Below are positions 1,172 through 13,942 of a DNA stretch of 30,614 nt, in pieces; the stretch's first letter is position 1; every line of letters starts with the position of its first letter. This DNA is from a virus. The notes beneath the pieces are model-generated. The model was not told the DNA's origin, ran no database searches, and saw only the letters and a program-made list of their open reading frames with translations. Location of the stretch: positions 1 through 30,614 of IMG/VR virus record IMGVR_UViG_3300022698_000057; one strand, written 5' to 3'. A program made the position numbers and the translations under genes.

Positions 1172-1561
1172 TTAGGTCTCGTCGCTCTCGATCTCGTTCG
1201 CCCAGCGCCGCTTGATGAACTCGATCACGCCGTCTGAATCCTTTGCCGTCACGAGCACTCCGATGTCGTAGTACCCAACGGTCGCCGTGTCGGAAAACTC
1301 CCCGCCCGTCGGGTCGAAGTACACCTTCTGCCCAACCGTCCCGAATGTGTTTTCCCCAGTCTTCAGGTCGTCTGCCTGGATGACCTCGCCATCTTCGGTG
1401 TCGAACCCGCCAACAGCCGCAGCTGTTACGGCTTCGCTCGCAACTGCGACAATACCGCCAATGACCGTCAACTCATCCTGAGCCAGATCCGATCCGGTAT
1501 CGTTCGTCAGCCTGTGCGACTTGGCCCCAGGGTTTTTGATGTAAACAGAATTGTTCGCCAT
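1172..1561 (-). CDS. Capsid decoration/cement protein, DUF2190-like
   Basis: This 129-residue protein (start MANNSVYIKNPGAK, ATG with AAGGGGGCG upstream) has the DUF2190 outline: an N-terminal strand, then a segment like LAQDELTVIGGIVAVASEA, then a GQKVYFDPTGGEF turn and a strand with GYYDIGVLVTA near the end. Members of that family sit between the protease/scaffold and capsid genes and stud the outside of the head, stabilising it. The position here is exactly that. The usual GVF motif after the second strand is not clear, so it is a divergent member. It is small, soluble and rich in Gly, Asp and Thr, as decoration proteins often are. Confidence 0.72.
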   Translation of the reverse strand: MANNSVYIKNPGAKSHRLTNDTGSDLAQDELTVIGGIVAVASEAVTAAAVGGFDTEDGEVIQADDLKTGENTFGTVGQKVYFDPTGGEFSDTATVGYYDIGVLVTAKDSDGVIEFIKRRWANEIESDET

Positions 1562-1572
1562 CTTGCGCCCCC

Positions 1573-3021
1573 TTAGTATTCAGCAACGATGGGCGCGTTC
1601 GGATCAACGGCCTCACCCTGCTTCTCGACTACGCCGATCTTGTTCTCGTTCGACGTGAAGTCTGCCTTTTGACCGGAAAGCTGTTTCGCTACCGGATCCT
1701 CGCGAAGCGATTCGATCTGTTTGTCCAGATCCTTCGCATTGGTGATCTGCGTACCGGCGTACCGGCGAAGCGCATTCACCTTTCCGTCCTGAGTCTGTTC
1801 AGGGCCGAACTCCGCTGTCAAACGGTTGGCGATCCGGTCAGACTCACCCTTCGCAACTTCTTCGCGAAGTGCGGTGATTTCCTTCACCGGATCCTCGATC
1901 CCCATCTCCTTCAGCGCATTCACAACCTTGAGCGCGTTCGCGTGTTCGTCGGTGGCGATCCTCGCCTCCTGCCCCATCGCATTCGCAACCTCGTCGATCG
2001 GGATACCTTTGTTGACTCGCAGGAACTCCAGCACTTCTTCCTTGGTGTCCATGAGACCCCTCCTCTGATTTTTCGTGTTTTCTTTCTCGTTGATCAGATC
2101 AATCAGCCTCGATGCGGCACTCGATACGTTCGGGAGGTTTTGCTGTGAAGCTCGGGCTGCGGCTGACCGCAGAGCAGACTTCAGAACAACCCGGCCATCG
2201 CCGTATGGGTATCCGTATCTCGCCTGTGTTTCCTCCTCGGCACTTCCGTGCTCAACGAGATGCCATGACTTGTATTGCTTCCAATTGTTGCCGCCAAGCA
2301 TCCGGCGCTTGACCGATGCGTTGTAGCTCCACTTCTTGTTCGCGTCGTATTCCCCGGCGTTGATCATCTGCCGAGCTTTCTTCACCGACGCCCCAAGCAG
2401 CTTGTCGCCCTCGGCGTTCTCTACAACGTCCTCTTCATCGCCATCTGAGTTCACGGTCTGCGCCATCGCGCCCTGTGGTACCGCCTCGTTTCGCTCGCCG
2501 CCCCGCGTCTTCAGGATCCGCACTTCCTGTGTCTCCTGGTTCACGCTGTACTCAACTGCGGCTTCGATGCTGAACTCCACGATCCCTGCGCGGTTATCCC
2601 GGATGAATCCACGGTTGGATGTCTCGTCACCCTCAGGTGGTATGTACACCTTGAAGTGCGCCACACCACGATCGCCGTTCTCGACCACCTTGCCGCCAAC
2701 CGTATAGAAGTCGCTATTCGGCCGGCTCTTGAATTCGTGGCCTCGTTTGCTTCCCGGTATCGGTCGGCTGTTCATGACCTCGACGAAGCTTGCAAAAAAC
2801 TCTTTGCCATAGATTGCGGGTTTCATCCCGACGGGGTTGTCGCCCTCTGCCGGAAACTCAATCGACTGGATACGGAAGTACGGGTCAGGATCACCAGCGG
2901 TCAATTCGTTCATCGCTTTCTCAGGGATAAGCGTAGGAACTTGATCTACCGGTAGCGGATTCGCTCGATTCTCGATGAAGCGAACACCGAACGTTTTCTC
3001 GGTCGCCCTATTCCTGGTCAT
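1573..3021 (-). CDS. Prohead protease fused to scaffold
   Basis: The 482-residue product seems to have three parts. Residues 45-200 resemble a phage prohead (S78-like) protease; GHE at 94-96 and the serine of VEFSIEA (about 151) are the likely catalytic His and Ser, by inference. Residues 205-310 hold a module with WKQYKSWHLVEHG and YGYPYGDGRVV followed by an Ala/Arg-rich helix, which I have seen in other phage head proteins. Residues 320-470 are charged and helical, ending TSNENKIGVVEKQGEAVDP, as in scaffolds. Protease-scaffold fusions cut the scaffold out of the prohead before packaging. It lies immediately before the decoration and capsid genes. The ribosome site is weak, and 56 bases separate it from the LexA-like gene. 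Confidence 0.65.
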   Translation of the reverse strand: MTRNRATEKTFGVRFIENRANPLPVDQVPTLIPEKAMNELTAGDPDPYFRIQSIEFPAEGDNPVGMKPAIYGKEFFASFVEVMNSRPIPGSKRGHEFKSRPNSDFYTVGGKVVENGDRGVAHFKVYIPPEGDETSNRGFIRDNRAGIVEFSIEAAVEYSVNQETQEVRILKTRGGERNEAVPQGAMAQTVNSDGDEEDVVENAEGDKLLGASVKKARQMINAGEYDANKKWSYNASVKRRMLGGNNWKQYKSWHLVEHGSAEEETQARYGYPYGDGRVVLKSALRSAAARASQQNLPNVSSAASRLIDLINEKENTKNQRRGLMDTKEEVLEFLRVNKGIPIDEVANAMGQEARIATDEHANALKVVNALKEMGIEDPVKEITALREEVAKGESDRIANRLTAEFGPEQTQDGKVNALRRYAGTQITNAKDLDKQIESLREDPVAKQLSGQKADFTSNENKIGVVEKQGEAVDPNAPIVAEY

Positions 3022-3077: not shown

Positions 3078-3299
3078 TTACTCGCGCCCGCCAGTTTCAA
3101 TCACAATCGACCGCGCTACGCCGTTTGTCCGCCGAATCGCACCCTTGCGTTCAAGCGCTTGAAGATGGTCACTCACCGCCCGAAGTGCAATACCAAACTC
3201 AACGCTGATCTCACGGATACTCGGTGAGTACCCAAGCGCTTGTCGGTACCGCCGCAGGAACAACAGCACCTCTGCCTGTCTCGCGGTCAGCTTTTTCAC
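3078..3299 (-). CDS. Stand-alone LexA-type winged-helix DNA-binding protein
   Basis: The 73 residues match only the N-terminal DNA-binding domain of LexA: MKKLTARQAEVLLFLRRY, then GYSPSIREISVEFG, then a recognition helix ALRAVSDHLQALERKGAI and a wing ending RSIVIE. The peptidase half of LexA (Ser/Lys dyad and cleavage site) is absent, so it cannot be inactivated by self-cleavage. It starts at a GTG that overlaps the sulfotransferase stop (GTGA), with GAGG five bases upstream, so it is translationally coupled to that gene. A DNA-binding regulator in the middle of a head operon is unexpected. It could set late-gene levels or compete at host SOS boxes; neither can be decided from sequence. Confidence 0.75.
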   Translation of the reverse strand: MKKLTARQAEVLLFLRRYRQALGYSPSIREISVEFGIALRAVSDHLQALERKGAIRRTNGVARSIVIETGGRE

Positions 3300-3913
3300 T
3301 TCAACCTCAACGCGATACTCGACGCGAATCGTTCCTCCGCTTCAAGCCGTTCGACGACCGCCGCGTGAACCGAGCTCGCCTTAACTGTCGATGCATTTTT
3401 CGCACCAGCACAGATTTTCATTTCGCCGCTTATCTGCTCTTTGCTCGCCCCGAGCGACAGGCAAAGTGCGGTCAGTTCATCCGTGAGCCGGGCGAAGCTC
3501 ATAAGCTGTACTCCCGGCCAAAATACATACTTTCCAAAAGTCAGCGACACAAACCCCGGTCGATTGTCCAGCGTCCAGACAAGAAACTTCTCAAAGCTCG
3601 CCCGCACAGATCTCGGCGTACCGTTCAGTGGCATAAACGGGTGCCACCACGCATCTTTTATGGCGGGCCATCGCCGCCAATTCACCGTCTCTTGATATGC
3701 CCACACACTACGCATCCATGATAGCGGGTCGCGCACAAAACAGCGGTAGACAATTCCCGTTCCCTGGCCGATGACTATAGGCGGGTCGTGCTTATGCCCT
3801 ACCGTGTACCGCACAAGTCCAAGGGCTTTGAGTATCGCCGTCACGAACGTTCCCCCGGTCCTTGGAACATGAAGAAATGCAGATCCGTCACACAGTATCA
3901 ATGCCACAATCAC
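3296..3913 (-). CDS. Sulfotransferase-like protein
   Basis: This 205-residue protein carries the two PAPS-binding signatures of sulfotransferases. The first is a 5'-phosphosulfate loop near the N-terminus, FLHVPRTGGTFV (residues 13-24). The second is a 3'-phosphate site, CFVRDPLSWMRSVWAY (58-73), with Arg61 and Ser69 in the expected spacing. Such enzymes move sulfate from PAPS to a hydroxyl, often on a sugar. The protein is shorter than most family members (about 250-300). It starts at a GTG overlapping the MuF stop (GTGA). With the glycosyltransferase, dehydrogenase and methyltransferases nearby it suggests modification of a glycan or of the virion surface. Substrate unknown. Confidence 0.68.
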   Translation of the reverse strand: MIVALILCDGSAFLHVPRTGGTFVTAILKALGLVRYTVGHKHDPPIVIGQGTGIVYRCFVRDPLSWMRSVWAYQETVNWRRWPAIKDAWWHPFMPLNGTPRSVRASFEKFLVWTLDNRPGFVSLTFGKYVFWPGVQLMSFARLTDELTALCLSLGASKEQISGEMKICAGAKNASTVKASSVHAAVVERLEAEERFASSIALRLK

Positions 3914-4884
3914 ACCGCCGGAAGGTAGACTTCATTGTACCACTGGTCCAATCCCGCATCTGGACCACCCTGATCCCACGCTCGCAACCGATTCTCGAAG
4001 TCCTTCAGGTTTTCCATCCGGGGCACCACAGCACACTGACAGTTTGCATGAGGCGCGGAGGGAACGTGCTCCAACCGATACGGCCCTGCCTCTTCAAACT
4101 CCGGGCAATCGCACCCCCAGTCTGTCGTGCTCTGCCGTACCCAATCGTAGAGCTTCGTACATGCAGGATTGATAATCCCCTGCTGGATCCCCGCGTCTCT
4201 GAGCGAGTTGTACAGTTCGGTTCGTACCAGCCTTGTCGCCCGCCAGTCTACCGCCTTCGGGATTCTCCGGGCAAACTCCCGTGTTCCCCTCCGCAGCTCC
4301 CCGTACCGATTCATCAGCCGCACCCTGCCGTCTGCCGTGTACACCTGGATATCCTGTGCAATCGCAAACACGTCCCGACCCTGCGCCAACCCCGCGCTCA
4401 AAACGTTTCGAATGTCGTCTCGGTATCGTCGGCCAACTCGCCAGACACGATCGCTGAACGTGTAGCCGTCCTGCCAGATCCGATTCACCACAGACTCGAC
4501 TACCTTGGTGTTGACCCCACTTACAATCTGCCCTATCACAACAGTATCGACTCGGGTCACCCCGGCGCGATTGAACACCTCGCTCATGTACGTGTCATTG
4601 ATCGTCCCGATCTTCGCGGCGCTTGCCTCGATCCCGATAACCCCATTTCGCGAAATCGCCGCAGAGATATCGCCGGCGGCTCGTTCAAGCTGCTTACTGA
4701 TTGACGCAAGACTTGTCTGTGTGATCTCCGCAGCCCCCGCCATCTCAGCCGCCTGTACCGCAGCGGCCACACTCTCGGACGCCGTGACATAGGCTGCATG
4801 GACTCGCCGCATGACCTGTCGCGTCATAGTCGCCAGCGAGTCCCGCGCCCTGAGAATCAATCTGCGGTACTCGTTATTGGTCAC
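3910..4884 (-). CDS. MuF-like minor capsid (head morphogenesis) protein
   Basis: The 324-residue protein has the MuF/SPP1 gp7 pattern: a long helical N-terminal half, an arginine-rich segment ending ATRLVRTELYNSLRDAG (about residues 210-226), and a Cys/His C-terminal signature with WGCDCPEFEEAGPY, then HVPSAPHANCQCAVVP. The WVRQSTTDWGCDCP...PHANCQC spacing is diagnostic for the family. These proteins bind the portal and enter the head, and some are ejected with the DNA. The start is a GTG one base after the previous stop, with GAGG upstream. It keeps the usual order portal, MuF, protease, capsid, except that five extra genes separate it from the portal. Confidence 0.85.
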   Translation of the reverse strand: MTNNEYRRLILRARDSLATMTRQVMRRVHAAYVTASESVAAAVQAAEMAGAAEITQTSLASISKQLERAAGDISAAISRNGVIGIEASAAKIGTINDTYMSEVFNRAGVTRVDTVVIGQIVSGVNTKVVESVVNRIWQDGYTFSDRVWRVGRRYRDDIRNVLSAGLAQGRDVFAIAQDIQVYTADGRVRLMNRYGELRRGTREFARRIPKAVDWRATRLVRTELYNSLRDAGIQQGIINPACTKLYDWVRQSTTDWGCDCPEFEEAGPYRLEHVPSAPHANCQCAVVPRMENLKDFENRLRAWDQGGPDAGLDQWYNEVYLPAV

Positions 4885-4885
4885 C

Positions 4886-5440
4886 CTACCTCAGCCTCAC
4901 GAACCACGTATGATCTTCGTCGATCTCGATCGTCGACTCGTTGAAGACTTCATCAACTGCCCGCTTGACCTCGCCATTTTTGTTCGCATAGTCGTGCCCA
5001 CCGATCCACGCAGCTCCCCGATCTATTGCAAGCTCCAACCACGCGTCCAGGTCACCCATCACGCCATCGTAGCTATGGTCACTGTCGATGAATACGAAAT
5101 CAATCTTGACTCCGCGCCGCTTGATCTCTTTCGCGCCGTCAGCACTATCCATTTCCAGAATCTTTGCACGGCGACCGAATTGCTCTGCGATTCCTTCCAC
5201 CTGGCGCTTCGCCATGTCGAAATCATCTTGTGGATACTCGGCCATTTCCGCGCCGCTTTCCGCGAAACTTGTTCCTGGTTCAGCCGCCTTCCACGGATCA
5301 ACCAAGTACAGCGTCAAATTGTGCCGTGCAGTCAAAAGCCGCTGAGCATTCTTGCCCTTCCACACGCCAACCTCGACGCCGACAACCCGCTCGTCAGCAG
5401 CGATCCGATCGAGTATCGCATCCCATCTTCGCCTCTTCAT
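4886..5440 (-). CDS. SAM-dependent methyltransferase (Methyltransf_24-like)
   Basis: The 184-residue product is a class I methyltransferase. Motif I is VVGVEVGVWKGKNAQRLL (residues 19-36). It is followed by LTLYLVDPWKA with the acidic residue that holds the SAM ribose, and then by the FVFIDSDHSYDGVMGDL block and GGHDYANKNGEVKRAVDEVF near the end, typical of the Methyltransf_24 group often linked to sugar and natural-product O-methylation. I chose the ATG at 5440 because it has AGGAGGAA just upstream and overlaps the previous stop by four bases; the frame is open 18 codons further. It is the gene before MuF and one of two methyltransferases in this cassette. Confidence 0.8.
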   Translation of the reverse strand: MKRRRWDAILDRIAADERVVGVEVGVWKGKNAQRLLTARHNLTLYLVDPWKAAEPGTSFAESGAEMAEYPQDDFDMAKRQVEGIAEQFGRRAKILEMDSADGAKEIKRRGVKIDFVFIDSDHSYDGVMGDLDAWLELAIDRGAAWIGGHDYANKNGEVKRAVDEVFNESTIEIDEDHTWFVRLR

Positions 5441-5619
5441 TTCTTCCTCCTCTTGTGACTTGTTCCTATATGCCAGAGCCCGCAGTATGAACACCGATAC
5501 ACTTTCAACGCCAGCTTCGTATTATGCCGCCGCATCATCTCGCGCCGCACCTTTTCAGCCATCGCCTTTGTCTCGAATCCCTGTTTGCTCTCACACCCTG
5601 CCGCCTGGTGTTCATTCAC
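5437..5619 (-). CDS. Small zinc-ribbon-like protein
   Basis: A 60-residue basic protein ending in VYRCSYCGLWHIGTSHKR. The CxxC...H...H pattern with a preceding CESKQGFETKAMAE segment is common in tiny phage and actinobacterial proteins and probably binds one zinc ion; the function of that group is not known. I place the start at a GTG (5619), which overlaps the upstream stop by eight bases and has GGAG in front. A GTG at 5658 would add 13 residues but overlap the upstream gene by 47 bases. Its stop overlaps the methyltransferase start (ATGA), so the two are likely co-translated. Confidence 0.65.
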   Translation of the reverse strand: MNEHQAAGCESKQGFETKAMAEKVRREMMRRHNTKLALKVYRCSYCGLWHIGTSHKRRKK

Positions 5620-6532
5620 TCCACGGCTCTCCACCAGTATAGCCAAATGCGCGAGCACTTGTTCCCGGCATTCGCTCCATCACATCCTCAAAGCAATCGT
5701 CGTGCGCTCGCATCCAATCTCGCTGAAACGTGAGCCCCTTCACTGTCGGCTTGCGCTCGAAGTACCAAAAGTCCATGAGTACAATGATCGTCTGCCCGGC
5801 AACGAAGTGCGGCCCGAACTTTCGCAGTGCTCCAAGAAACTGCTTCTCGCGTTTACACGCATCGTCGACGTACAGCCCGATATGCCCGCCATCGTAGGAC
5901 AAGTCGGGGATCTCGCCTTTGTGCAGCATAACCCATCTATCCAGCCCTGCGGCCTTCAGCGCTCGACGGACCCACAATGACGTATCGCCCTCAATCTTGA
6001 TTCCAACCGCCGCCGCTTTATCCCGTTCGCTGCGATTCGCATTGAATCGATCATATACGTGGACATCACCACCGTTTCCTTCGCGACAGCCAAGAGCAAT
6101 CTGAGCTGTCCCAGCGCCGAGCCATGCTCCAAGCTCCACAGCATCGAATCCTTTTGGCATATTGCGAGCCCATTTTCTGAGGTACCGCCCGATCTCACGC
6201 CCACCCATCGAAGGTATCCGACGAATCTCGTCTGGCATTTCATCGAGCGCAAGGTAGTCCGTCGCAATACGGCGGTTCAAGTCAGTTTCGTAGTCAGCAT
6301 TCTCGGCCCACCAACCGCTATCGTATTCCTTGTTGTAATCCTTCAGGGCAAGATCCATGCGCTTTGCCATATCCACGGCTTCGCGCACGAGCCCGCGAGT
6401 GGTGATATCCGTCTGCGTGTCGCCCTGGTGAAGATCGTTGATTTCACGCAAGACCTCACACACTGTCCGTTTCGGGCTTGCGTTCTGTAGCTCCTGACCC
6501 TGCCGATTCCGAATCACTGGGCGCATACTCAT
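5612..6532 (-). CDS. Class I SAM methyltransferase, larger type
   Basis: This 306-residue protein has a helical N-terminal part (about 1-120) rich in acidic and aromatic residues, followed by a Rossmann methyltransferase domain. Motif I is FDAVELGAWLGAGTAQIA. Further on come VHVYDRF, with the ribose-binding acid, and then GGHIGLYVDDACKREKQFL and a late FVAGQTIIVLMDFWYF strand. The layout recalls TylF/MycF-type sugar O-methyltransferases, though the residues that bind metal in that family are not clear. The ATG at 6532 overlaps the previous stop by four bases; the open frame extends 38 codons upstream, into the preceding gene, and is ignored. Likely target: a sugar or small molecule made by the cassette. 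Confidence 0.7.
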   Translation of the reverse strand: MSMRPVIRNRQGQELQNASPKRTVCEVLREINDLHQGDTQTDITTRGLVREAVDMAKRMDLALKDYNKEYDSGWWAENADYETDLNRRIATDYLALDEMPDEIRRIPSMGGREIGRYLRKWARNMPKGFDAVELGAWLGAGTAQIALGCREGNGGDVHVYDRFNANRSERDKAAAVGIKIEGDTSLWVRRALKAAGLDRWVMLHKGEIPDLSYDGGHIGLYVDDACKREKQFLGALRKFGPHFVAGQTIIVLMDFWYFERKPTVKGLTFQRDWMRAHDDCFEDVMERMPGTSARAFGYTGGEPWSE

Positions 6533-6780
6533 GGCCGCTTCCTCCGCAGACGCTTTGCATTCTTCGCAGCCTTTCGAGCCGCAGCGTGGACACGGGCAAT
6601 GATCTTCGGATCTTCGCGCCACTTCGGTTTGCCCTCTGCTACCCACTGGTCATACAATCGCTTGTCGTCGTTTTCCAGGACACCGCCAGCAGCTACGATC
6701 TTGTCAAATACCAAACACTTTGCCTCGCGCCGATCCAGCTCTTCGGCAAATGCCGCCATCGCCTTTTGTGTTCCGCTCAT
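6529..6780 (-). CDS. Small helical, basic hypothetical protein
   Basis: An 83-residue protein that starts MSGTQKAMAAFAEELDRRE and ends in a strongly basic tail (RKAAKNAKRLRRKRP). It is predicted to be helical, with a central YDQWVAEGKPKWREDPK segment. I do not recognise a family. The ATG at 6780 overlaps the glycosyltransferase stop by four bases, and the stop overlaps the larger methyltransferase start by four, so it is translated as a bridge between two sugar-related enzymes. The Arg/Lys tail could bind nucleic acid or a partner protein; this is inference only. Confidence 0.6.
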   Translation of the reverse strand: MSGTQKAMAAFAEELDRREAKCLVFDKIVAAGGVLENDDKRLYDQWVAEGKPKWREDPKIIARVHAAARKAAKNAKRLRRKRP

Positions 6781-7562
6781 CTTTTTAGCTCTGACACTTT
6801 GATACCCGCTTCCGCATACCACGCCTTCATCGCCGGAGCCCTCCGCAGGGCCTTGCTCCTGTGCGGCGATCCCTCCGAACGTGTCAGCTCCCCAGGTATC
6901 GTGCGGGTCAACACCGCTTTCCTCAGGTCGCTCTTGATATGGATGAACACCGTCTTGGATCCGACATGCGGCCAATCGTAGTTGACCGCGTTGTAGTGAA
7001 GCGTCGGCAGCTCCTTGAGTCTCGCGCCCTGTTGCTCTTCCGGCTTTTCCAGCAGATATCCGAAGCTCGCCTGGTTCATGCCGCCGTACCGAATGCGCCA
7101 TTCCGCATGTAGATTCCAATCGTAATAGAACTGCTGATCAAGTTCTGTCCATCGCTGAAAGAAATGCCGCGTTGCCTCGGTCGGTCGCACGTACACCACC
7201 CCTCCATTTACCGAGAGGTTGGTGTGATCGTTTCGCACTGTGTATGCAATGTCGAAGTCGTTTTCGTCAAAGACATGAGACGCATCCCCGACACATACCA
7301 TGTCGCAGTCAGCCAGGATAAGGTCTACTCCGTCATCGACAGCTTGCTGCGCCTCCCGAGCCCATACCTGAAGTTTCTCCATGTTCGATAGAAACGACAG
7401 CTTCCGGACTCCGCTGTGATCCGGTGGGTCCATTTTGATCGAGCGGACTTCGCAGTGTGGCATGTGATGGTGAATGGATTTCTCGAATACTTCGAGCAGC
7501 TTTGCATAGTCGGGGCGCTTCAGCCTCGGCGGGTAGTTGAACGAAACGGTTACGAGCCTCAT
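6777..7562 (-). CDS. Glycosyltransferase, GT-A fold
   Basis: The 261-residue protein has the features of a nucleotide-sugar glycosyltransferase. A first strand (MRLVTVSFNY) leads to LILADCDMVCVGD (residues 81-93), whose DxD (85-87) would hold the metal and sugar nucleotide. SVNGGVVYVRP (117-127) follows, as in GT8/GT77-like enzymes, and FIHIKSD near residue 215 supplies the late His. No membrane segment is seen, so the enzyme should be cytoplasmic. It overlaps the dehydrogenase-like gene by four bases (ATGA), which suggests a joint pathway: one enzyme prepares or oxidises a UDP-sugar and the other transfers it. The acceptor cannot be told; virion proteins or host surface glycans are the obvious options. 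Confidence 0.75.
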   Translation of the reverse strand: MRLVTVSFNYPPRLKRPDYAKLLEVFEKSIHHHMPHCEVRSIKMDPPDHSGVRKLSFLSNMEKLQVWAREAQQAVDDGVDLILADCDMVCVGDASHVFDENDFDIAYTVRNDHTNLSVNGGVVYVRPTEATRHFFQRWTELDQQFYYDWNLHAEWRIRYGGMNQASFGYLLEKPEEQQGARLKELPTLHYNAVNYDWPHVGSKTVFIHIKSDLRKAVLTRTIPGELTRSEGSPHRSKALRRAPAMKAWYAEAGIKVSELKR

Positions 7563-8362
7563 GCGTGATCCCTCTTCGCTTCATCATTTGCTGCCACGAC
7601 AGCCGATAGCAGCGGCATTGAAACCAGCCGATTGTCGGCCTCTCTCAGGATCGCCGGAATGTCTTTGTTCAGGCAGTGAGAATCGTAGTAGGGATGATTT
7701 CGGTAGGTGAAACTGTGACTGCGCCCGATCCGTTCATCATTCAGTAGCAGCTCGCGCCATTCGTCAACGTCCACGCCACAGGCAGTGCACAGCCGATAGA
7801 ACTCCGCAAAGAACGTCACCTTTGTCGCGAGAAAAGCATTCTCAGCGTACTTGACCAGCTCTGCCGTGACTGCCGTTGTCTTTAGAATCCGAAACGAAGC
7901 CGGCGCGATTTCCTTGTACTTCTCTGCAACGATAGACGCTGCTTCCCACGGTACGCACATCGGCCTTCCAAGGATCACGAAATCATGATCAACGGCATTC
8001 GCGTGCTGCGTACCACCCCAGAACTCCGGGCTGAATATCGTACGCTTTCCGGTCTCATGAGCCAGCCGATCGGTTGATCCTGGGGGAACCGTGCTCTTGA
8101 TCACGAATACGTCAGCGTGATTGTCCCGAATCGCCTCCATGACGATCGAGGTATTGGCCGATCCATCCTCCCGCATTTCTGTCGGCACACAGACAAACGC
8201 TACCCGATATCGGTGGGCCCCGGGTCCGTCCACGAACGATGGCTTCGGATACTGACTCGCGAACTTCTTCGGATCCACCACCCGTGCCTGAGGAAATAGC
8301 AGCCGTTTGACGTTCTGCCCGACCGTCCCGAAACCGATGATTCCAATGTCCTCTTGTTGCAT
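7559..8362 (-). CDS. UDP-glucose/GDP-mannose dehydrogenase homologue lacking the C-terminal domain
   Basis: The 267 residues match the first two domains of UDP-sugar dehydrogenases. They include an NAD-binding loop IGIIGFGTVGQNV (6-18), KSTVPPGSTDRL (89-100) and SPEFWGG (111-117). The catalytic helix is VKYAENAFLATKVTFFAEF, with Lys171 and Asn175. The motif DSHCLNKDIPAIL has Cys230 and Asp234. The Lys/Asn and Cys/Asp spacings equal those of active enzymes, so the active centre looks whole. The third, nucleotide-sugar-binding domain (about 120-150 residues) is missing, and the gene ends naturally in an overlap with the next. I prefer the second of two adjacent ATGs because AGGAGG sits at a better distance. 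Confidence 0.8.
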   Translation of the reverse strand: MQQEDIGIIGFGTVGQNVKRLLFPQARVVDPKKFASQYPKPSFVDGPGAHRYRVAFVCVPTEMREDGSANTSIVMEAIRDNHADVFVIKSTVPPGSTDRLAHETGKRTIFSPEFWGGTQHANAVDHDFVILGRPMCVPWEAASIVAEKYKEIAPASFRILKTTAVTAELVKYAENAFLATKVTFFAEFYRLCTACGVDVDEWRELLLNDERIGRSHSFTYRNHPYYDSHCLNKDIPAILREADNRLVSMPLLSAVVAANDEAKRDHA

Positions 8363-8370
8363 CATGCCTC

Positions 8371-9840
8371 CTATCCGAGCGCTGACAGTACGTCCTCCGC
8401 GCTCTCGTCTTGCTGTCCGTCGCCGCCATCTTCCATCGGTGCCGCGACATCAAAAGCATCTCCGAGCGATGCTTGCGACCACTGCCGGAACCTGGCCGCA
8501 CGGTTCATCCCAGTTACGAACTCTTCATAGTCCTCTTCGGTCGCCTCCGGAAAGTTCTGCTTCCACAGCGCGTGAAGCTGCTGGTCGGTGACTGCCGCGT
8601 AGTTCATGGCAAATCCAATGCCCTGCGTGAAGTTCTTGAATATCTCGCTCCGCACCTTGTCACTGATCGCATCCAGCCGGTTCCACTCTACCTGGAAGTC
8701 TGCGACCTGTCGCATTCTCGCCATTCCGAGCAACCGCAGCGATCCCGCGAACAGCTTATGATACGCCCCGTTCTTCTGGGTGCGCTTATCGTCAGCATAG
8801 GCCACAAGCGTTCCCATCTGCTCTTCTGCGGAGGCGTGATTGCCCTCGGTCTTCAAGCCCCATGCGATCTCGGGGATCCCCGACCCCTCGACGATCTTGC
8901 GGAACGTGTATTTGAGTTTCGCCTCATACGCTTCGGTAAACGGTGGCTCGATCAACTCGATCGATTCTTCATTCGACGTGTTTTTGAAGAAGAGGTCTGC
9001 AGTTGCTACATCCACAGCATCGACAGTAGCGAAGCCGTTGTCTGCAAGCCACTTATCGACATCTCTGACCCCGATCACCAGCTTGGCGCGAAACTTCGCC
9101 AGTAGCAGTGTCCATGCATGGTCGATATCGTGATAGCTTTTCAGGTCCGGCAGGATCCGCGAGTAGTCACTTATGCCCCGCGTTTCATTCGGCTCTTTGT
9201 TGTTCGCAAACGCAACGGGAAGCTCGCCCGATGGATTTACATATTCGACGCTCTCAAGCCCAGGCACTGAAGACGACTCGTAGAAGATCGCCACCCGTTC
9301 GCGAGTGAACGTCTTTTTCCGTCGAACCCGTCGTATATCGTTTGGCCCGACTGACACTGAAAGATACTCGTCGGTCCGGATCTCTTTTACCTCTCCGGTC
9401 ACGACATCTTTGATGATATCCGTAACTGAGCTGTCGGGAATGAACTCCCAGCGCAACCCCGTATCCGACGAGTACGCTGGCCACACCCAGCACGTTCCGT
9501 CCCGGTGGCACGTCTTGTGAATTTGCCAGCACAGCTCGTGCACCGAGTCCACAATATCCGTCAGGATCTCCTGCGTCCGTTCATCCTCGCTCGTCGGCAC
9601 GGGAACGCCCATCAGCGTGACCGGCACAAAGATCGGTGCGAACGCCAGTGATCCCGCCAACCTCATTGACGGATACGTGTTACGCCACAGGCCCCTGGTC
9701 AGGTCGTCATTGATTGTCAGTCCTTCTGTCATATCGACAGTCTTCGGTCTTCGTGGCGCTCTCTGTATTGGATTCTCTGTCGAGGATTCTTGCGTCTCCC
9801 GGCTCTTGAACCAGTCCATCACCGTATCGAGTATGCTCAT
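8371..9840 (-). CDS. Portal protein
   Basis: The 489-residue protein lies directly after the terminase large subunit and overlaps it by four bases (ATGA), the standard portal position. The sequence fits the portal family: a charged N-terminal segment, an early GLWRNTYPSMRLAGSL region, a central beta/alpha body with a LPVAFANNKEP turn, an IPEIAWGLKTEGNHASAEEQ segment (about 325-345) of the kind that precedes the long stem helix, and an acidic C-terminal tail (DGGDGQQDESAEDVLSALG). It would form the dodecameric ring at the vertex through which DNA is pumped, binding the terminase and MuF. I cannot assign it more closely than SPP1/HK97-like portals. Confidence 0.82.
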   Translation of the reverse strand: MSILDTVMDWFKSRETQESSTENPIQRAPRRPKTVDMTEGLTINDDLTRGLWRNTYPSMRLAGSLAFAPIFVPVTLMGVPVPTSEDERTQEILTDIVDSVHELCWQIHKTCHRDGTCWVWPAYSSDTGLRWEFIPDSSVTDIIKDVVTGEVKEIRTDEYLSVSVGPNDIRRVRRKKTFTRERVAIFYESSSVPGLESVEYVNPSGELPVAFANNKEPNETRGISDYSRILPDLKSYHDIDHAWTLLLAKFRAKLVIGVRDVDKWLADNGFATVDAVDVATADLFFKNTSNEESIELIEPPFTEAYEAKLKYTFRKIVEGSGIPEIAWGLKTEGNHASAEEQMGTLVAYADDKRTQKNGAYHKLFAGSLRLLGMARMRQVADFQVEWNRLDAISDKVRSEIFKNFTQGIGFAMNYAAVTDQQLHALWKQNFPEATEEDYEEFVTGMNRAARFRQWSQASLGDAFDVAAPMEDGGDGQQDESAEDVLSALG

Positions 9841-11709: not shown

Positions 11710-12366
11710 TTAACGTTTCTCCGGCTCTTGGATATAGAGTAACGGATTCAACGACTTTCCGTCAGGCGCTATAATCTCGAAGTGTAGATGTGGGCTTACG
11801 CTTTGCCCTGTGTTGCCAACCCTTCCAATCGGTTCGCCCGCCCTGACTCTTGCTCCAATATGCACCACGTTCATCCGCGACGATGACAGGTGCGCGTATC
11901 TCGTACGCAAGCCGTCTTCATGTTCGATCTCGATGTACCACCCGTAGATTGGGTGCCCCTTGAATGTCTTTCCACCCCACGTACCGATCGGCCAGTGGTC
12001 CGTTACCACGCCATCGGCCACCGCTACGACCTGAGCCCGCCATACTCCCGCGATGTCGATTCCTGTGTGATACTTCTCGACGTGCAGAATCGGACTCACT
12101 CTATAGCCACTTGGCGATGTGTACCTCAGAAAGTCTTCGCTCGCAATCGGGAACAACCACCGCGCGTCTTGAACCTCTACAGGATCCGGTACCGGTACCT
12201 CAGCGCCTCCGGTAGCGTCCTCGGCTACCTCCTGCTGTTGGATCCTCAAATTGTGTACCTGGCCCCGGAGGTCCCGATTGATCAACGCGAGCGTCACCAT
12301 CCCACCAACAAGAATGAGTCCTGCGATCAGCCCTACTATCAGTCCGACTTTCAGCTCTCTCTGCAT
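11710..12366 (-). CDS. Membrane-anchored M23 metallopeptidase (lysis-type)
   Basis: The 218-residue protein has one N-terminal membrane helix (residues 8-29) after a short basic start, a linker with a short coiled coil, and an M23 (LytM/lysostaphin-like) domain. The zinc site is visible: KYHTGIDIAG gives His100 and Asp104, RYAHLS gives His159, and SVSPHLHFEI gives His193 and His195. These enzymes cut peptide cross-links of peptidoglycan. The anchor would place it on the outer face of the cytoplasmic membrane. It lies between a resolvase and the terminase genes. It may serve host lysis or local wall opening; no holin was recognised beside it. GGGAGGT precedes the ATG. Confidence 0.87.
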   Translation of the reverse strand: MQRELKVGLIVGLIAGLILVGGMVTLALINRDLRGQVHNLRIQQQEVAEDATGGAEVPVPDPVEVQDARWLFPIASEDFLRYTSPSGYRVSPILHVEKYHTGIDIAGVWRAQVVAVADGVVTDHWPIGTWGGKTFKGHPIYGWYIEIEHEDGLRTRYAHLSSSRMNVVHIGARVRAGEPIGRVGNTGQSVSPHLHFEIIAPDGKSLNPLLYIQEPEKR

Positions 12367-13233: not shown

Positions 13234-13599
13234 TCAGGTTTCATCGCTGGGCTCCATCTCGCGTAGGAAGGCGTGGGTATCTTCAACAAGGTCCCATGAT
13301 TCGTTGCCCTGTCCGGTTGCAACGGCCAGATGTCGCCGCAGCAACTCCACGGCGCGGGCGAGGTCGGCTTTTAACGAGGCCGCGATACTTTCCCATTGCC
13401 GCAGCTCTGCGTTCTCGGCTTCCAGCTTCTCTGCCCACAGCGTAAGTTCATGCGATCCGTTCTGAGCGTGTCGCATTCGTTGTCGGTATTCCCACGCCCG
13501 GTGTCGCCAGCACCGTATCTCGTCGCGTAGCTCGGCGTTCTCAGCCATGAGTCTTGTACCAAGACTCAGTTCATCCACCATCGCGTGATTGTCATCCAT
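13234..13599 (-). CDS. Coiled-coil hypothetical protein
   Basis: A 121-residue acidic/basic helical protein. It contains repeated AENAELR-type heptads (LMAENAELRDEIR, then KLEAENAELRQWESIAA), so a dimeric coiled coil is likely. No catalytic motif is visible. The start is the ATG at 13599, with GGAGGAAG upstream and eight bases of overlap with the preceding gene. It belongs to a string of small genes with unknown roles between the DUF3102 gene and the resolvase. Confidence 0.65.
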   Translation of the reverse strand: MDDNHAMVDELSLGTRLMAENAELRDEIRCWRHRAWEYRQRMRHAQNGSHELTLWAEKLEAENAELRQWESIAASLKADLARAVELLRRHLAVATGQGNESWDLVEDTHAFLREMEPSDET

Positions 13600-13942
13600 C
13601 ACTTGCTTCCTCCATCCAGCGGGTCTCGGCAAGTAAACTTCCCAGCCCACACGTACACTCAGGCAACTGGTCGCTAGGATACCACTTGTTGCCAAACATC
13701 AATTCATAGTCTCTGCCATCTTTCGTCGGTCGACCGGCTTGCCACCGTGACCGGATACATTTGCGATCATGTTTCGCCTCTTCCACCCACTCCCGCAGCC
13801 GCCGCGCCTGTTCCAGTAGGGTGTCGTAGTCAGTGGCGAGGACGACATCAAATGCTTCGTCAGCATTCAACTTCCCACCGTCGGTAAATACAACCCCATC
13901 GCGATGAAGTAGGAATGTTCTGTACCGCTTCACGTCACTCAT
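13592..13942 (-). CDS. Hypothetical protein with DGG/TDYD motif and C-terminal Cys pair
   Basis: A 116-residue protein that starts MSDVKRYRTFLLHRDGVVFT and has DGGKLNADEAFDVVLATDYD followed by a helix, which matches the architecture of the product at 12926-13204. It then adds a C-terminal part with KCIRSRW and LPECTCGLGSLLAE, where the cysteines could hold a metal or form a disulfide. Function unknown. The ATG at 13942 overlaps the upstream stop by eight bases; a GTG one codon earlier is the other option. Confidence 0.62.
   Translation of the reverse strand: MSDVKRYRTFLLHRDGVVFTDGGKLNADEAFDVVLATDYDTLLEQARRLREWVEEAKHDRKCIRSRWQAGRPTKDGRDYELMFGNKWYPSDQLPECTCGLGSLLAETRWMEEASDG

Follow-up and report, generated by a model that had tools for sequence, protein, structure and literature searches.

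A mobile set of sugar-modifying enzyme genes in phage head operons, probably serving virion-protein decoration

Why would a phage make sugar-modifying enzymes together with the proteins of its head? The question is raised by IMG/VR virus record IMGVR_UViG_3300022698_000057, of which we analysed a linear virus contig of 30.6 kb (positions 1 to 30,614; hereafter the window), with a head operon on the minus strand. Between the genes for the portal and a MuF-like head morphogenesis protein stand a short dehydrogenase related to UDP-glucose 6-dehydrogenase (mini-UGDH), a glycosyltransferase (GT) and two O-methyltransferases (MT1 and MT2), and a sulfotransferase-like gene (ST) follows MuF (Table 1). 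A preliminary description, made from the sequence of the window, had suggested a decoration pathway acting on a virion protein, an ejected protein or a host surface glycan. Here we report that these genes form a mobile cassette and that, judged from sequence, it is probably a system for glycosylating or otherwise decorating virion proteins.

Relatives were found among IMG/VR contigs (numbered with the prefix L) with alignment profiles, first of the portal and then of UGDH, MT1 and MT2; scans of viral contigs with single UGDH, portal or ST proteins gave no relatives, so that alignment scans were needed. Each enzyme gene other than ST is 55–66% identical to its counterpart in L013 and/or L020, and the only relatives found for ST, in L101 and L107, are 36–37% identical; because they are conserved in this way, the enzyme open reading frames are real genes rather than chance ones. 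Portal relatives at 63% (L013) and 64% (L020) identity have the cassette at the position that it occupies in the window, whereas those at 36–47% are without it. In searches of whole records, three of the 12 portal-chosen relatives had GT, MT2 and UGDH together and the other nine had none of these genes. About 20 divergent contigs have the same enzymes in at least three positions of the head operon, namely the portal–MuF gap (as in L174 and L254), upstream of the portal (L023, L100, L258) and after the gene for the major capsid protein (MCP; L095, L096, L103, L106, L252, L263), and the cassette is split around the portal in L102, L105, L259 and L264. L101 and L107 hold the set, together with an ST of the window type, adjoining the terminase and portal of another lineage. 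On the portal tree, at least nine changes of cassette position or presence were counted, and at least three when presence alone was considered. Since the set is all-or-none in the portal-chosen relatives and recurs in several positions, it is a functional cassette that travels as a unit inside head operons, and not scattered cargo. L174 and L175 have GT, MT1 and MT2 and no UGDH; GT and MT2 therefore form the core, to which the dehydrogenase and the sulfotransferases are often added. According to the preliminary description, random scattering of the genes among relatives would speak against a common pathway; we found genes that change place yet stay together as a set, which supports the pathway that it proposed.

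The same genomes offer a candidate acceptor that is readable from sequence: decoration and capsid proteins with a tail whose last residue is Ser or Thr. Of 15 cassette contigs, 14 have a head decoration protein with such an end, against none of six contigs without the cassette (Fisher test, 1.3e-4, kinship ignored), and two more decoration proteins, recognised by position and ending PVDEST and PVEEAT, bring the former count to 16 of 17. The tail reads ...EIESDET in the window and ...ESDET in both L013 and L020, and the sole cassette contig lacking a Ser/Thr end is L100, whose UGDH has an in-frame stop. An acidic MCP tail ending in Ser/Thr is likewise associated with the cassette (12/15 with, 1/7 without; p 0.007), as is a Ser/Thr end on the head–tail adaptor (10/14 versus 1/7; p 0.024). 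Non-homologous proteins of one phage have tails in common, DET in L013 and L020 and EEAT in L263. There was no such enrichment over a background of ∼8% in the portal (0/17), the protease (0/18), the chaperone or the cassette enzymes.

Two further candidates were considered alongside these. The idea that every virion protein ends in Ser/Thr was rejected, with portal, protease, ad1, ad3 and TAC at background, and the tail tube, suggested by analogy with mycobacteriophages, was unsupported, its conserved NV-like tail ending in Ser/Thr in one of 11 cases. The longer decoration proteins (230–269 aa) of the cassette-negative L014, L016, L019 and L027 have an extra C-terminal part that replaces the short Ser/Thr tail. 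Elsewhere in the window (13234–13695, minus strand), a coiled-coil-like protein of the early region ends ...EPSDET like the decoration protein, perhaps by chance or as another acceptor.

The mini-UGDH resembles bacterial UDP-glucose 6-dehydrogenase (PF03721/PF00984/PF03720) in its NAD-binding and central domains and its catalytic residues: the GxGxxG motif is invariant in the family alignment, and so, in all members, are the residues taken here as the catalytic E, K, N, C and KD. Unlike the bacterial enzyme, it stops where the C-terminal UDP-binding domain would start; PF03720 was found neither in the window record nor in any of eight records searched, with a positive control in 14 of 14 genomes. 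Versions of 240–300 aa are common in phages and bacteria, so this is no degraded copy. Such short proteins, also without the UDP-binding domain, occur in Lachnospiraceae, Paenibacillus, Acidobacteria and Moranbacteria (L185–L241) and thus not in phages alone. The sequence suggests that the mini-UGDH either binds a UDP-sugar by other means or oxidises a sugar that is already attached, and the latter may be the case because the domain that would grip UDP is absent.

The remaining core enzymes are more conventional in their matches. The window GT scores 37.7 bits against PF03407 (curated cut-off 22) and has a DxD motif (ADCDM) and a C-terminal HIKS, both conserved in L013, L020 and L023. MT2 scores 55 bits against PF13578 (cut-off 26.3), and its structure model (pLDDT 94.6) has as nearest PDB entry MeT1 (6g7d; E 2e-7, 19% identity), a sugar 1-O-methyltransferase; catechol O-methyltransferases come next, and the calicheamicin methyltransferase CalS11 ranks below them. 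MT1 reaches only 22.4 bits against PF13578 (cut-off 26.3) and is 62% identical to its L013 counterpart; it is a fusion of a probable methyltransferase with a small phage domain that also stands alone in many phages. This domain makes up the first ∼90 residues of MT1 (TICEVLREINDLHQGD...YNKEYDxGWW), and elsewhere it is a standalone protein of ∼84 aa that sometimes adjoins MT2 (L106 11427–11681, L175–L184). No hydrophobic or membrane-like segment was detected in any cassette enzyme (maximum KD19 1.43).

Sulfotransferases appear in the cassettes in two types. The window ST carries the motifs FLHVPRTGGT and FVRDPxxxxxSVWAY, corresponding to a putative site for the co-substrate 3'-phosphoadenosine 5'-phosphosulfate (PAPS) and conserved in L101 and L107, and in the family search it matched no sulfotransferase Pfam family, nor any family at all. 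Its structure model is of low confidence (pLDDT 57.5), and the top 20 Foldseek matches, all with E of at least 0.067, are SULT-fold proteins including retinol dehydratase. A second type (STb) is found in the cassettes of L023, L105, L252, L254, L258, L259 and L263, matching PF13469 at 0.0005–0.0014, below the cut-off; profile comparison found no relationship between the two types. Sulfation, as the preliminary description proposed, is plausible in some cassette members, the window included, its basis being the motifs, the low-confidence fold match and the co-occurrence of the second-type sulfotransferases.

From these enzymes and tails we infer an acceptor, a sugar and an order of steps, sulfation among them. 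Soluble enzymes would be made alongside the head proteins during late expression, and the GT would attach a sugar to proteins of the capsid surface, the likeliest sites being the C-terminal Thr or Ser of the decoration protein (ESDET) and the MCP. Oxidation of a hexose at C6 by the mini-dehydrogenase would give a uronic acid, O-methylation of the sugar would fall to MT2 and MT1, and in some members, including the window, the sulfotransferase would add sulfate; that the mini-UGDH may act on a sugar already attached is the most speculative step. We hold the C-terminal acceptor, sulfation and oxidation in place with markedly lower confidence than virion-protein decoration as such. The full version, in which a mobile cassette writes a glycan that contains uronic acid, is O-methylated and is sometimes sulfated on the last Thr or Ser of two to three capsid-surface proteins, with enzymes and tag gained and lost together and UGDH oxidising in place, is unlikely to hold in every particular. 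We know of no phage capsid bearing a sulfated glycan, and this one, if real, would be the first.

Several observations weigh against this reading. The tail test was conceived only after the sequences had been looked at, and the independent contrasts number one that is well supported and three to four on the best tree, all in the expected direction and too few for significance. Four of the six cassette-negative decoration proteins are longer, with C-termini that are not homologous; Ser/Thr ends of the MCP also occur without the cassette (4/7); and the MCP of L174, which has a cassette without UGDH, ends in Leu. In addition, the window GT family gave no match by hhalign to gp36 of Firecracker, a phage with a comparable gene block (see below), gp36 being the only Firecracker glycosyltransferase compared. 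The Ser/Thr tails might have to do with the structure or processing of short decoration proteins and merely accompany the cassette, with the glycan elsewhere on the virion, a real but lesser possibility that gains from the scarcity of independent contrasts and from the long decoration variants of most cassette-negative phages. It fits less well with the short decoration proteins that lack an intact cassette, in L026, a Treponema prophage (described below) and L100 with its interrupted UGDH, which end in I, A and A respectively, and with the tails common to non-homologous proteins of one phage.

Other explanations would place the product away from the virion surface or deny the genes a common product. 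Some T4-like phages use UGDH to make arabinosyl-hydroxymethylcytosine, and the cassette could similarly build a complex sugar and attach it to phage DNA before packaging; a TET-associated glycosyltransferase (TAGT, PF20691) is encoded just ahead of the terminase genes in L013 (7169–8050, 6e-34) and L101 (5085–5948), and ParB-like genes are found near UGDH in L107 and L101, in Microbacterium phages and in the Treponema prophage. We consider DNA modification quite unlikely all the same: only two of 26 records have TAGT, the window not being one of them, a hydroxymethylase of the thymidylate synthase family was found in none of 21 records (control positive, records fragmentary), the methyltransferases resemble sugar and catechol O-methyltransferases, and the Ser/Thr-ended capsid proteins would be left unexplained. 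The lack of TET/JBP in 26 records counts weakly here, since the control was silent and the records are fragments. Phages are known to carry genes for altering host polysaccharides (for example PMC6586298, PMC9241936), and the cassette enzymes might modify host glycans to exclude superinfecting phages or to change the receptor. Yet the cassette enzymes have no hydrophobic segment, no membrane GT, flippase or lipid-carrier enzyme was recognised among the window genes searched, and at each recurrence in the lineage the cassette lies within the head operon, making a host-surface role very improbable. Just as improbable, in our judgement, is a collection of unrelated accessory genes (morons) at permissive gaps of the head operon; the portal–MuF gap does hold other cargo elsewhere, such as ThyX in Youna2, but the same enzymes occur together in different gaps and are all-or-none in the portal-chosen relatives. 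Of the three targets named in the preliminary description, the virion protein is thus favoured, by the soluble enzymes, the head-operon setting and the Ser/Thr-ended decoration proteins; the host-surface glycan is disfavoured, and nothing found points to an ejected protein.

Within the window, the order of the operon is terminase, portal, enzyme string, MuF, ST, a LexA-type helix-turn-helix (HTH) gene, protease/scaffold, decoration protein and the start of the MCP gene. The tight stop/start overlaps reported earlier are borne out: every gene from the portal to the LexA-type gene is joined to the next by overlaps of 4 nt (UGDH/GT, GT/basic, basic/MT1, Zn-ribbon/MT2, MuF/ST, ST/LexA) or 8 nt (MT1/Zn-ribbon) or by gaps of 1 nt (MT2–MuF) or 5 nt (portal–UGDH). 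The string has the extent first described, except that the LexA-type gene also belongs to it, and the enzymes listed were recovered by family matches and motifs, in an order that needed correction, as the Zn-ribbon gene sits between both methyltransferases. Family searches gave no significant match for the small basic protein.

Table 1. Features of the head operon in the window.
Feature	Position	Strand	Evidence
Portal protein	8371..9840	-	phrog_64/146 E ~2e-4; 63-64% identity to L013/L020
Mini-UGDH, UDP-glucose/GDP-mannose dehydrogenase-like, 268 aa	7559..8365	-	PF00984 7e-19, PF03721 2.6e-6
GT, GT-A type	6777..7562	-	PF03407 2.8e-9
Small basic protein, 83 aa	6529..6780	-	38% over 56 aa in L020
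MT1, 'CEVLREIND' domain + probable Methyltransf_24-type O-methyltransferase	5612..6532	-	PF13578 2.4e-4, below curated cut-off
Zn-ribbon protein, ~60 aa	5437..5619	-	phrog_15216 9e-7; 43-52% in L013/L020
MT2, Methyltransf_24 O-methyltransferase, 184 aa	4886..5440	-	PF13578 1.7e-14
MuF-like head morphogenesis protein	3910..4884	-	phrog_1657 1.9e-44
ST, sulfotransferase-like protein, 205 aa	3296..3913	-	PAPS-site motifs; homologs in L101/L107 cassettes
LexA-type winged HTH, 73 aa	3078..3299	-	PF01726 3.6e-21; conserved in L013/L020
Prohead protease/scaffold	1573..3021	-	phrog_34096 7e-6; 57-64% in L013/L020
Head decoration protein, end ...EIESDET, proposed acceptor	1172..1561	-	phrog_122 5e-7
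Codons of C-terminal ESDET tail of decoration protein	1175..1189	-	
MCP, runs off contig end	1..1158	-	homology to L013 MCP

Two neighbouring genes deserve mention. The LexA-type DNA-binding domain stands alone (73 aa), joined by overlap to the head operon, and is kept in L013 and L020; in L020 (4756–5490) it lies inside a 244-aa protein with a C-terminal part that is HNH-like by eye. Directly before the terminase genes, a peptidase/endolysin-like protein (11710–12366, minus strand) has a hydrophobic stretch near its N-terminus and a 46% homologue in L107.

Parts of the cassette are met in other phages. Microbacterium Quhwahvirus (Honeyfin gp84-85) has a short UGDH, 32% identical to that of the window, adjoining a GT. 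This pair differs from the window in its setting, a stretch towards the right end of the genome that holds ParB and AAA genes and none annotated as structural; its GT is not detectably related, and MT2, MT1 and ST are missing. A prophage in a termite-gut Treponema metagenome-assembled genome (L189, L327–L328) is a distant relative of the window (portal 32%, MuF 37%, MCP 35%), carrying upstream of its terminase a ParB gene, a mini-UGDH, a GT8, a PAPS-reductase-domain protein and a second ParB gene. This prophage may hint at the host of the wider lineage; a scan of bacterial genomes with the portal found no host.

The closest parallel in layout is offered by the cluster O mycobacteriophages Corndog and Firecracker. 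Their interval from portal to capsid protease holds genes for an O-methyltransferase, for two glycosyltransferases and for a putative N-acetylglucosaminyltransferase, and methyl and glycan modification of the capsid was proposed for them (PMC4351075). This precedent calls for a correction of the earlier view that the combination is uncommon in the portal–MuF interval. Freeman et al. 2023, as cited in PMC11600133 and PMC12619734, reported that such enzymes modify capsid and tail tube, with C-terminal glycans. In the literature cited here, virion glycosylation is proven mainly in actinobacterial phages. Like the Corndog-type block, as seen in Firecracker (L329), the window has its O-methyltransferase and GT genes in the interval that separates portal from capsid protease; the Firecracker O-methyltransferase also matches PF13578/TylF. 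Unlike the window, the Corndog-type block is without a dehydrogenase, a second methyltransferase and a sulfotransferase, the Firecracker MCP ends VPLVGS with no DET-type tail, and the window lineage is one of MuF-type phages. By this comparison, the window would work like the Corndog-type block in the same operon slot and is not a homologous copy of it. The idea of virion glycosylation would thereby reach a varied lineage of uncultured phages, and with it a richer chemistry. New in this lineage are the mini-dehydrogenase, the recurrent sulfotransferases and the Ser/Thr end of the decoration protein in phages with the cassette.

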